Source: Paenibacillus sp. BIC5C1
Lineage (GTDB): Bacteria > Bacillota > Bacilli > Paenibacillales > Paenibacillaceae
DNA length: 64,000 nt
Assembly (NCBI RefSeq): GCF_032399705.1
Contig: NZ_CP135922.1
Location: forward strand, 6,820,001 to 6,884,000
Reading direction: 5' to 3'
Shown: one piece after another, positions 47,522 to 50,934 of the stretch
Layout: each line of letters opens with the position of its first letter
How positions within the stretch are numbered: the first letter of the stretch is position 1
Position numbers and translations under genes: made by a program
The notes under the pieces: generated by a model
The model's input: the letters and a program-made list of their open reading frames with translations, nothing else
Databases searched by the model: none
What the model was told of the DNA's origin: nothing

Positions 47522-47878
47522 TTATTTGTACAACACTTTATCTACATTGTATTTCGCACGCATCGTGTTGATGATATAGGTCTCGTAAATTTCGCGATCC
47601 ACCGGATCTTCAATAACGCACACTTCAATGGTGGTTACTTCCTCGCGGTGTGACTTCATTGGTGATACGGTATCTTCAAAATGCTTCTTGATGCGCGGTC
47701 TTAATTTTCGTGCTTTCCCGACAAATAACAACTCATCATCGGCATTGTAAAACATAAAGATACCGCCCTTTTCCCGCGTAATCAGGTGGAAATCGGTGAA
47801 TCCATAAATGTGGCTAAGCTGTGGATCAGCCTGCTTCGTGATAATGACATCTGGTGTTGGCACAGTAATATTAATCAA
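47522..47878 (-). CDS. GIY-YIG domain nuclease-like protein
   Basis: A small protein of about 118 residues with a GIY-YIG-type catalytic fold: GGIFMFYNADDELLFVGKARKLRPRIKKHF is the motif region (about 38-67), where the first half is GIFMFY and the second LLFVGKA with the conserved Arg in LRPRI, and a Glu lies in DPVDREIYETYIIN. The domain resembles the one in UvrC and Cho, but there is no other UvrC segment. I set the start at TTG 47878, ten bases after GAGGA. Longer frames back to ATG 47920 lack a site. Function is unassigned, perhaps DNA repair or nucleic acid cleavage. Confidence 0.75.
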   Translation of the reverse strand: MINITVPTPDVIITKQADPQLSHIYGFTDFHLITREKGGIFMFYNADDELLFVGKARKLRPRIKKHFEDTVSPMKSHREEVTTIEVCVIEDPVDREIYETYIINTMRAKYNVDKVLYK

Positions 47879-48040
47879 TAGGTTCACTTCCTCATTATCT
47901 ATAGGTTTACATCCTATCATATATTATAAAGGGAAACCATTTCATTAATAAGAAGCAAGATTCAAGCTTTTTTCAACTATTACGACAAATATTTCAAAAA
48001 AAAGGTTAACTTCCCTGATTCAAAGTGGTACTATAGGGGT

Positions 48041-48445
48041 ATGAGGAAGAATTTGGGCACTAAGACATATGTCTTTATATCTACTTCCGTCTATTGTACC
48101 CTATGATTGATCATCTTTTTCATACTGAATTCTGTTACGCGCGCACGACAAGAGTACAGTTAGCAAGAACTTAGCCTTATAGCTTTAAGATTCATCATCT
48201 AATCGACCCTTGCAGCAAGCAAACGTAGAAAGATCCTAGATTTACGAAGCTAGTATAGAATTGGATTGACCTAGAAAGCCTGCAATTATAGCCGTACGAG
48301 AGTAAATAGACACACGTAGAAGGACAGACAGCTATCGATCCTAGAGAGACTAGTCATGCAACGCCAACCTAGAAAGTTATAGCAGCAGCACTATAAAAGA
48401 TGGATCACGTTTCACCCCAGCCCGGCATGATGCCAGGGCTTTTTT
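48041..48445 (+). ncRNA. Candidate structured non-coding RNA of about 400 nt with internal repeats
   Basis: A 600-base gap has no open frame of useful length on either strand before the MocR gene. A possible promoter (TTAACT at 48006, 17 bases, TACTAT at 48029) and an intrinsic terminator at 48419-48445 bound about 400 nt. Inside are an exact palindrome AAGACATATGTCTT (48062-48075) and two imperfect copies of a 70-base unit (48223-48292 and 48314-48383), each with the ordered boxes ACGTAGAA, GATCCTAGA, CTAGT, ACCTAGAAAG and TTATAGC. A TTATAG-CTATAA hairpin precedes the terminator. CTAG, usually rare in bacteria, occurs six times. No known RNA class was recognised. Confidence 0.45.
48419..48445 (+). 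terminator. Terminator of the candidate RNA
   Basis: AGCCCGGCAT and ATGCCAGGGCT arms, then TTTTTT. No plus-strand coding gene precedes it, which is the main sign of a non-coding transcript or leader. Confidence 0.7.
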
Positions 48446-48471
48446 ACGTTTTGCCCAAACAACTAACCACT

Positions 48472-48519
48472 CCCGCAGGGAAACAGAGGTATCGTGGTTC
48501 TTTCTGCGGGGGTTATAAT
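48472..48519 (+). promoter_or_regulatory. Inverted repeat and promoter of the MocR-ddl operon
   Basis: CCCGCAG at 48472 and CTGCGGG at 48504 form an inverted repeat with 25 bases between. TATAAT at 48514 is a perfect -10 with only a weak -35 upstream, as expected for an activator-dependent promoter. The arms probably bind the MocR-type regulator. Confidence 0.45.
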
Positions 48520-48550
48520 ATGGCAAGATAGCAAATAAGGGAGTGATGGG

Positions 48551-50002
48551 ATGTATTCCGATCTGCAATTGACGGAGGACCGCCCTGTATATATACAAGT
48601 CAAAGATTATATGAAGCGATTGATGCTCAAAGGCGGCCTGCAAGCCAAACAAAAGCTTCCTTCTACCCGCGAACTCAGTACACTCATGAAAGTAAGCCGC
48701 AGCACGATTCTGCTGGCCTATGCTGAATTGGAGGAAGAAGGCCTGATCTACGCGGTCAAAGGAAAAGGCAATTACGTTAGTTCAACCATTGATGCACCTG
48801 AGGCAACGTCCGGGTGGCAGCTGGACTGGAACGAACGTGTCAGTGACTACGCAATTCAGGCGGAGCAATATGATCTGATGAAGCATGGCTCAGGATCGGA
48901 GCGCGGTGAGATTTCATTTACCAGCATTGCGCCCGATGAGAAGCTGTTCGACATGCACAATGTAAAAAGAGCCTTTCTCGACCGGATGTCGCTTGAAGGT
49001 GAAGTGCTGTTGAATTACGGATATGCGCAAGGCTACAGGCCTCTTATGAAGTATCTGCTGCAATATATGGAAAATAAAGGTGTTGACCTGACCGGCAAGG
49101 ATATTCTGATTACCAACGGATTTACGGAAGGTTTTGATCTGGTACTGGGTGCACTTCGCAAAAAAAGCGGTAGGGCCCTGTGCGAAAACCCGACACACCA
49201 TACCGCTGTTAAAAATCTGAGGCTTCATCAATTCCATCTCACCGGTGTGGATATGGAATCAGATGGTCTGAATCTGCGGCAGCTGGAACGGGAACTTGAA
49301 GCAAACCCGTATGATCTGGCCTATCTCGTACCCTCTTACCACAATCCAACCGGGATCGTCACATCACCTGCCAAACGGACAGAGATCATTCGGTTGATGA
49401 ACCAGTACCATGTGCCGATTATTGAAGACGGCTTTAACGAGGAATTGCGGTATTCCGGTTCCCATGTCTCCCCTCTGATTGCCAGTGTGGGCAAAGGGAA
49501 CGGACTCGTATATCTGGGTAGCTTCTCCAAGGTTTTGTTTCCGGGACTGCGCGTAGGCTGGGTCATTGCGGATGCGGCGCTGATTGATTATCTGGAAAGC
49601 ATGAAACGGGCGCGCAGCATTCATACCTCGACGCTGGATCAGTCACTGCTTTATCAATATCTGAGCAACGGCAATTTCGAGAAATACTTGAAGCGTGCCC
49701 GCACGGAGTACAAGCGAAAATATGAGCTGGTCGTTCGCTGCTTGCGGCAGTATCTGCCGATGTGCCGGGTTTCCGGTGAAGGCGGCCTTCACCTGTTCGT
49801 ACAATTTCCATCAGAATACCGCACGAGGGAACTGCTGGCGGCTTGCAAGGTAAAAGGCGTTACCTTCATGCCCGGGGATACCTTTTATCTTGAACCGGGT
49901 CAGGGACAAAACACAATGCGTTTGGGCTTCTCCCGGGTCAGCGATGAGAACATTCGCAAAGGCATTCGCATCATTGGCGAGACGGTTGCTCAAATGAGAT
50001 GA
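48551..50002 (+). CDS. MocR/GabR-type PLP-dependent transcriptional regulator (DdlR-like)
   Basis: A 483-residue fusion of an N-terminal GntR winged helix (about 10-75, KLPSTRELSTLMKVSRSTILLAYAELEEEGLI) and a C-terminal fold-type I aminotransferase-like domain (about 110-480). The PLP lysine lies in YLGSFSKVLFPGLRVGW, and PSYHNPTG is the substrate-binding turn. MocR regulators sense amino acids through PLP. In Brevibacillus brevis the related DdlR regulates the D-alanine ligase gene. Here ddl follows directly and the two reading frames almost touch, so a DdlR-like role is likely. The ATG follows AAGGGAG. Confidence 0.9.
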   Translation: MYSDLQLTEDRPVYIQVKDYMKRLMLKGGLQAKQKLPSTRELSTLMKVSRSTILLAYAELEEEGLIYAVKGKGNYVSSTIDAPEATSGWQLDWNERVSDYAIQAEQYDLMKHGSGSERGEISFTSIAPDEKLFDMHNVKRAFLDRMSLEGEVLLNYGYAQGYRPLMKYLLQYMENKGVDLTGKDILITNGFTEGFDLVLGALRKKSGRALCENPTHHTAVKNLRLHQFHLTGVDMESDGLNLRQLERELEANPYDLAYLVPSYHNPTGIVTSPAKRTEIIRLMNQYHVPIIEDGFNEELRYSGSHVSPLIASVGKGNGLVYLGSFSKVLFPGLRVGWVIADAALIDYLESMKRARSIHTSTLDQSLLYQYLSNGNFEKYLKRARTEYKRKYELVVRCLRQYLPMCRVSGEGGLHLFVQFPSEYRTRELLAACKVKGVTFMPGDTFYLEPGQGQNTMRLGFSRVSDENIRKGIRIIGETVAQMR

Positions 50003-50013
50003 GGAGGATTCAC

Positions 50014-50934
50014 ATGAAAGTTGGCGTTATTATGGGTGGCACATCTTCGGAGCGGGATGTTTCCCTGCTCACCGGACAGGAGATGATCAACCATCTGGAT
50101 GGACAGAAGTATGAGGTTATTCCGGTGGAAATCAACAGCAAGCGTGATCTCATCGAGAAAGCCGCAGGATTGGATGTGGCACTGCTCGCTCTGCACGGCA
50201 AATACGGCGAGGATGGCACGATTCAAGGTACGTTAGAGTCGCTGGGCGTTCCTTATACAGGCTGTGGTGTACTCGCGAGCAGTGTATGCATGGACAAAGA
50301 TATGTCCAAACGGCTCATACAGCATGCGGGTATACCTACTGGCGAGTGGCTTCAGGTAAGCAGTCTGAATGAATTGTCATCAACCGCTGTGCAGCAGTTA
50401 ACATATCCCGTTGTGGTAAAGCCCAATTCAGGTGGTTCCAGCATCGGTACACAAGTGGTGCAGGAACCCTCGGCTCTTCATGCGGCTGTAGAAGCGGCTC
50501 TCGTTTGGGACGAAGTCGTCATGATCGAGCAATATATTGAGGGCGAAGAGATTACCTGCGCCGTTCTGGATGGTCAGATGCTTCCTGTTATCTCGATTCG
50601 TTCAAATGCCGATTTTTTCGATTACACCTCCAAATATAATGACTGCGGCGCTGAGGAGCAGGTCGTTCATTTGCCTGCCGATTTGCATAAACGTGTAGAA
50701 GCGGCGGCATTAACCTGTTACCGGGTGTTGAAATGCAGTGTATATGCTCGCGTGGACATGATGATTCGAGATGGCATGCCCTATGTGCTTGAGGTGAACA
50801 CGCTTCCGGGTCTTACCCGAAATAGCCTGCTGCCCAAAAGTGCAGCCGCTGCTGGTATCTCCTTTGCCAGTTTGCTGGATTCCATTATTGATCTCTCGTT
50901 AAAAGAACGTCAAAAGGAGGCAACGCGATCATGA
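50014..50934 (+). CDS. ddl: D-alanine--D-alanine ligase
   Basis: A 306-residue ATP-grasp enzyme that joins two D-alanines for peptidoglycan. Motifs are VIMGGTSSERDVSLLTGQ, ALLALHGKYGEDGTIQG, GVLASSVCMDK, VKPNSGGSSIG (ATP-binding), and RVDMMIRDGMPYVLEVNTLPGLT with the metal-binding acids and the terminal Ser-rich loop. The start ATG at 50014 follows GAGGAGG. The frame extends 5 codons further back into the MocR stop region. It overlaps the following GNAT gene by four bases. Whether the chromosome has another ddl copy cannot be told from this window. Confidence 0.95.
   Translation: MKVGVIMGGTSSERDVSLLTGQEMINHLDGQKYEVIPVEINSKRDLIEKAAGLDVALLALHGKYGEDGTIQGTLESLGVPYTGCGVLASSVCMDKDMSKRLIQHAGIPTGEWLQVSSLNELSSTAVQQLTYPVVVKPNSGGSSIGTQVVQEPSALHAAVEAALVWDEVVMIEQYIEGEEITCAVLDGQMLPVISIRSNADFFDYTSKYNDCGAEEQVVHLPADLHKRVEAAALTCYRVLKCSVYARVDMMIRDGMPYVLEVNTLPGLTRNSLLPKSAAAAGISFASLLDSIIDLSLKERQKEATRS

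Follow-up and report, generated by a model that had tools for sequence, protein, structure and literature searches.

What is encoded in the intergenic stretch 47921–48550 of Paenibacillus sp. BIC5C1, between a GIY-YIG gene and a MocR-type gene, and does it belong to either of these neighbours? The locus lies within the window, i.e. the whole 64,000-nt stretch of DNA that was analysed, and both genes were assigned with Pfam, as was the GNAT gene that follows next after the D-Ala-D-Ala ligase (ddl) gene. The initial annotation of this DNA had seen no credible gene here, and none emerged from the comparison of relatives: within 48036–48445 no open reading frame of at least 25 codons is common to all 11 representatives, and two short frames recur. 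A 91-codon frame with a TTG start (48377–48652, minus strand) runs opposite the 3′ end of the element and the start of MocR, and looks spurious.

A predicted RNA gene with its own promoter and terminator

Searches with Rfam 15 gave no match at the gathering score anywhere in the 64-kb window, in agreement with the initial annotation, which had recognised no known family. A relaxed search produced five sub-threshold matches at the element, all at chance level (E 1.9–6.2), the best of them with 16.2 bits against a gathering score of 56.4. The titles and abstract openings returned by a literature search do not mention this RNA. For P. riograndensis, 27 small RNAs are reported (PMC5670726).

The candidate promoter proposed at the outset, which a simple scan had left unlisted (it scores 8/12), is well conserved: TTAACT, a 17-nt spacer and TACTAT (48029–48034, preceded by the TG of an extended -10) lie in a stretch, 47981–48034, that is 89–100% identical in nine groups of sequences. 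Identity over the 48 loci is 0.75–0.81 in 47921–47980, compared with 0.97–0.99 in the adjoining A-rich stretch, and the 54 bases 47981–48034 as a whole are 0.96–1.00 identical in groups A–G and 0.89 in group H, a comparison that covered nine groups and 26 of the 48 sequences. For the flanks, identity in groups C–H is 54–80% upstream and 23–59% downstream, with gaps counted as mismatches. The promoter consensus given for P. riograndensis is ttgaca/TAtaaT (PMC5670726). The spacer (48012–48028) is itself nearly invariant across the clade, unlike those of ordinary sigma-A promoters, and a regulator site may overlap it. A SigB-like GGGTAT at 48037–48042 was set aside, being broken in loci L046 and L011.

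At the opposite end, the plus-strand terminator of the initial annotation folds in every representative tried, with hairpin energies of -12 to -17 kcal/mol, a bulged A having made a simple scan miss it. Its identity ranges from 0.79 to 1.00 by group, where that of the flanks drops to 0.23. The suggestion of an unrecognised independent RNA is thus supported, because conservation, a promoter and terminator of its own and the silence of Rfam coincide. We regard it as very probable, from sequence comparison, that the element is an independent RNA gene, which would be transcribed as such, with a predicted 5′ end at 48036–48041 (Table 1). Paenibacillus, a genus used in agriculture, would gain with it an RNA gene that matches no Rfam 15 family.

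Table 1. Coordinates of the genes, predicted RNA elements and signals at the locus (positions in the window)
Feature	Position	Strand	Basis or remark
GIY-YIG gene	47522–47920	-	Pfam
A-rich conserved stretch, UP-like element	47981–48005	+	Mean identity 0.97–0.99 over 48 loci
Promoter: -35 TTAACT (48006–48011), 17-nt spacer, extended -10 TGGTACTAT (48026–48034)	48006–48034	+	Read from sequence
Predicted RNA gene, about 405–410 nt	48036–48445	+	One copy each in 48/75 genus genomes
5′ domain closed by helix P1	48039–48125	+	Alignment A1, pair counts
Helix P1	48040–48050 with 48114–48124	+	Alignment, pair counts
21-codon frame at likely 5′ end, candidate leaderless peptide	48041–48106	+	ATG in 46/48
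Inner helix of 5′ domain	48054–48057 with 48080–48083	+	Alignment, pair counts
Hairpin of 5′ domain, AAGAC/GUCUU	48062–48066 with 48071–48075	+	Alignment, pair counts
Helix P2 (region 48125–48159)	48125–48132 with 48152–48159	+	Pair counts
Inner hairpin of P2	48138–48141 with 48144–48147	+	Pair counts
UAG array, 14 UAG in 250 nt, holding both 70-base units	48166–48415	+	12–17 UAG in about 250 nt in 25/25 homologues tested
Intrinsic terminator	48419–48445	+	Folds in 18/18 representatives tested
Separate MocR-ddl promoter (TATAAT 48514–48519) and AACCAC...GTGGTT dyad	48465–48519	+	Outside RNA; stays with displaced MocR
GntR/aminotransferase (MocR-type) gene	48551–50002		Pfam
D-Ala-D-Ala ligase (ddl) gene	49999–50934		After MocR-type gene; Pfam

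Distribution and relation to the neighbouring genes

Other Paenibacillus genomes, to which the initial annotation had pointed, do carry the element: a DNA query spanning 48021–48445 matched 48 of the 75 genomes of the genus, at a single place in each, with the match split into two pieces in four (G004, G030, G043 and G044). The same 48 were recovered among 394 genomes of the family by a BLAST-type query from the distant relative L047, and among 388 by R1, a covariance model with 132 positions that represents the 5′ domain (run with stricter filters, the best eight candidates being scored per genome). Applied to the 27 non-bearing members of the genus, R1 found nothing at E up to 1 in the best 125 candidates scored per genome, a limit by which strongly diverged copies may have been missed. 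Diverged copies were sought at the old neighbours with nhmmer in its maximum-sensitivity mode, and no match was obtained in 20 regions, ten of them upstream of MocR and ten upstream of GIY-YIG; 18 of these 27 genomes were covered in this way. The plasmids, phages and viral contigs searched likewise held no match to the RNA. An exact degenerate pattern, run against the named genomes of GTDB, matched 27 contigs, every title being Paenibacillus; amylolyticus, pabuli, xylanilyticus, xylanexedens, taichungensis, illinoisensis, barcinonensis and tundrae are represented, with others. One of the 27 is labelled P. polymyxa. The RNA is present in L111, from a genome labelled Paenibacillus polymyxa ISL-58, a label that may be wrong; G029 (L030) groups with the amylolyticus-like bearers.

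A FastTree phylogeny of MocR covered the 48 bearers, with partial sequences for L001–L030, together with 20 non-bearers; the other seven of the 27 gave no MocR match at E 1e-100. The bearers formed one clade with a support of 0.974, within which L047 and L048 branched first and the node uniting the other 46 was supported at 0.601. The simplest reading of these sequences is a single origin with no sampled loss, and with its sharp clade boundary the element would offer a clear example of an RNA gene that arose a single time and has persisted since. The copy in L011 (1499–1915, minus strand) is 89% identical to that of the window although the MocR gene is 94% identical; three of its P1 pairs are broken, and it is possibly a decaying copy.

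Besides an independent RNA, the initial annotation had considered a leader that attenuates the ddl operon. The gene order in most bearers is as expected for a leader or attenuator of MocR-ddl: in 44 of the 48 loci the RNA lies directly upstream of MocR, which starts approx. 100–340 nt past it, with the terminator in between. A leader would, however, be directly upstream and co-transcribed in all bearers, and in the remaining four loci (L035, L037, L038 and L039) MocR is displaced to approx. 1.7 kb from the RNA and keeps a conserved promoter of its own; in L038 the two are separated by a convergent, Pfam-confirmed MFS transporter gene. All four displaced loci have the TATAAT and the AACCAC...GTGGTT dyad directly before MocR, and TATAAT and GTGGTT also precede MocR in five other loci examined. 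The dyad, which travels with MocR, is likely a MocR operator. These four loci contradict the leader, which we now consider a very remote prospect. On the opposite side of the RNA, no GIY-YIG match at E 1e-5 was found in the available flanking DNA of L046–L048, and in L047 this side is occupied by a Pfam-confirmed short-chain dehydrogenase gene. With MocR displaced in four loci and GIY-YIG not found in the flanks of L046–L048, the RNA is therefore tied to neither neighbour.

The 5′ domain and the reading frame that overlaps it

The first 90 nt or so are highly conserved and, besides the terminator, are the best conserved transcribed part of the element. They belong to a predicted domain closed by pairing of GUAUGAGGAAGA with UCUUUUUCAUAC (48039–48050 with 48114–48125), which contains the perfect 14-base palindrome already seen in the initial annotation, AAGACATATGTCTT at 48062–48075, as a hairpin that is kept in 99.2% of alignment cells. 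In L046 one base is missing from each arm of P1 at partnered positions, so that the helix stays in register, and a G-C pair stands where other sequences have G-U; U-G replaces U-A in five of the 25 sequences, and one inner pair of P2 changes from C-G to U-A in four sequences and is unpaired in three. When all helices are taken together, 66 of 500 shuffles attain the observed covariation score, and 39 of 500 attain the observed percentage paired. Pairing was found in 97.3% of cells, and in at most 56.6% when the structure was slid along the alignment, the structure having been derived from the same sequences.

In folding energy, the 5′ domain has z-scores from -2.1 to 0.4 in 11 representatives; 48041–48445, folded alone on the plus strand, is no more stable than its shuffles (z 0.81), and the minus strand folds better (z -1.58). 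The earlier description of the element as structured is, in these models, plausible for the 5′ third, but it does not extend to the 3′ part, which folds less well than shuffles in nine of 11 representatives. The 5′ domain would fold round P1 and may serve to protect or position the RNA.

The conserved bases could also be explained by coding. An ATG at 48041 is found in 46 of 48 homologues, and in 37 of these 46 it opens a frame of exactly 21 codons, from which a near-leaderless peptide might be made by a coding or dual-function RNA. The first seven residues vary little, and minor alleles number 48, 39 and 87 by codon position, the third being approx. twice the first or second. Against this, variable columns are spread over the codon positions (10, 8 and 11), the frames of the other nine homologues are 17–62 codons long, and the ATG is lost in L011 and in L046, where the loss coincides with the matched deletion in both P1 arms. 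Helix P1 occupies the same bases and explains their conservation as well, and an upstream ribosome-binding site has no room if the predicted 5′ end is right. The frame weakly suggests such a peptide, but it may instead have arisen as a side effect of helix conservation, and a coding or dual-function RNA seems to us very improbable. A second frame, from a TTG at 48094, has its start codon in 43 of 48 homologues, is 1–69 codons long and is devoid of third-position bias.

The UAG array, its possible partners and known titration RNAs

The initial annotation had drawn attention to two 70-base units in the 3′ part (48223–48292 and 48314–48383). Their likeness is real in the window, where the alignment score of 17 exceeds the maximum of 11.5 in 1000 shuffles; in a best-pair control, 17 was reached in none of 60 shuffled regions and 15, the coarse-grid value, in one. 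It also holds in the close relatives L012, L029 and L031 (0–1 of 300 shuffles), but it is absent from seven representatives of groups D–H (L035, L038, L040, L042, L045, L046 and L047; 44–222 of 300 shuffles). The TTATAG/CTATAA hairpin (48377–48396) folds only in part of groups A–C. Six CTAG tetramers lie in 48166–48415 (vs 2.2 in shuffles); what relatives share is UAG.

UAG exceeds dinucleotide shuffles at p ≤0.03 in 24 of 25 sequences (p 0.10 in L045), whereas its complement CTA does so at p ≤0.05 in only one of the 25, i.e. the excess is strand-specific; the homologues are related by descent, and counts across them are not independent. By z, UAG is the most enriched trimer (159 vs 92.5 in 11 representatives, whose 5′ halves hold 0–2 UAG each). 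Over the 64 kb, 250 nt contain 1.5 UAG on average. Among 12,750 windows, the 25 richest in UAG all fall on the element, 20 on the plus strand (10–15 UAG) and five on the minus strand (nine each), the latter because CTAG is palindromic. The array is the densest UAG window in all 48 bearer loci (12–17), compared with 5–10 in 20 control loci of non-bearers, none of which contained a window of comparable density.

The positions of the triplets are less constant than their number. Seven aligned UAG positions are shared between L002 (14 UAG) and L042 (17), and three between L042 and L047 (14); to the extent that the alignment is reliable, the number of UAGs is kept while their positions shift. UAG positions were not conserved significantly better than those of other triplets, the observed value being reached in 306–1559 of 5000 permutations across five groupings. 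The triplets keep apart from one another, with gaps of 3–6 nt in 9 of 148 cases against a random mean of 34, a shortage that is significant in two of ten sequences taken singly; 554 of 698 spacings measure 7–19 nt. UAGs are predicted to be more unpaired than average in only four of 11 sequences.

Strand specificity, and number kept without position, would predict that the 3′ part captures a UAG-binding protein, the triplets acting as repeated sites that titrate it, as CsrB does with CsrA. As the main action of the RNA, such titration is a possibility that we raise with caution. The fuller account, in which a clade-specific RNA of approx. 405 nt, transcribed independently and with its 5′ domain closed by P1, titrates a UAG-binding protein, is offered tentatively as an explanation of the whole by analogy, one that could well be right without yet being the probable one.

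A different role would be that of a base-pairing RNA acting in trans, its 5′ domain reaching targets through conserved unpaired bases, e.g. around AAUUGGGCACUAA, with the 3′ part as a spacer or stabiliser. The high conservation of the 5′ domain fits such a role, as do invariant bases that reach beyond the helices; the strand-specific density of UAG, kept despite turnover, is left unexplained by it, and we find it rather unlikely. Pairing between UAGAAAG boxes and CUUUCUA, the free tail at the 3′ end of 16S rRNA, was weighed as well, TAGAA being the top 5-mer (50 vs 10.7) and the 16S gene examined reading CCTCCTTTCTA. Three of five sequences (L002, L012 and L035) exceed letter shuffles in windows at -6 kcal/mol or better, but L042 and L047 fall below them, in all five the strongest duplex that the 3′ part forms falls short of the average for shuffles, and UAGC is enriched too. 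We give this pairing hardly any credence.

To our knowledge, few bacterial RNA-binding proteins that recognise triplets are known. The HutP site of the hut leader is an antiterminator site recognised through UAG, and in this it resembles the array; unlike it, the bearers of the present RNA are without HutP, which is encoded in two of 75 genomes, both non-bearers, and in none of the 48 bearers. HutP was rejected as the partner. The other protein considered was TRAP (MtrB), the tryptophan regulator that binds (G/U)AG; the RNA might act as its decoy. As at the TRAP site of the trp leader, UAG triplets are repeated in an RNA of a Gram-positive organism; TRAP is encoded in all 75 genus genomes, and anti-TRAP is above the cut-off in six of them. 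A TRAP site is described as 11 GAG or UAG triplets with spacers of 2–3 nt (PMC3913778), i.e. one every 5–6 nt, whereas here UAGs are mostly 7–19 nt apart and spacings of 5–6 make up 17 of 698 (2.4%). Homologues hold at most 5–8 (G/U)AG in 53 nt, and their longest NAG chain with 2–3-nt spacers has 2–5 triplets vs the approx. 9–11 repeats required. GAG is outside the 12 most enriched trimers. Also against a decoy, the 27 non-bearers all encode TRAP too, and the six anti-TRAP genomes are all bearers, a pattern that gives no hint of the RNA standing in for anti-TRAP. A TRAP decoy is, in our estimate, highly improbable, slightly more so than the 21-codon peptide. With HutP absent from bearers and the spacing of TRAP sites not matched, another UAG-recognising partner is therefore proposed for titration by the array. 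The more specific statement, that the RNA titrates an undescribed UAG-binding regulator or antagonises TRAP, and that it was born once in the amylolyticus/pabuli/barcinonensis branch and kept in each of the 48 descendants sampled, is one that we put forward as doubtful.

The titration proposal is best seen beside CsrB, CsrC and RsmZ, which are standalone RNAs of a few hundred nucleotides. A single short motif recurs many times in each of them, and the number of motifs persists more than their exact place. The present element would likewise be a standalone transcript, a promoter and terminator of its own being recognised by sequence comparison. Unlike in those RNAs, where the motif is GGA, the repeated motif here is UAG: CsrA is encoded in the genome of the window, yet GGA is not the repeated motif of the RNA and is outside the 12 most enriched trimers, TGGA being twelfth among the 4-mers (12 vs 3.9). 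A motif that is repeated on one strand, and kept in number and not in place, nevertheless resembles the anatomy of the titration RNAs CsrB and CsrC, which are described as carrying 18 and 9 CsrA sites, respectively (PMC4347634).
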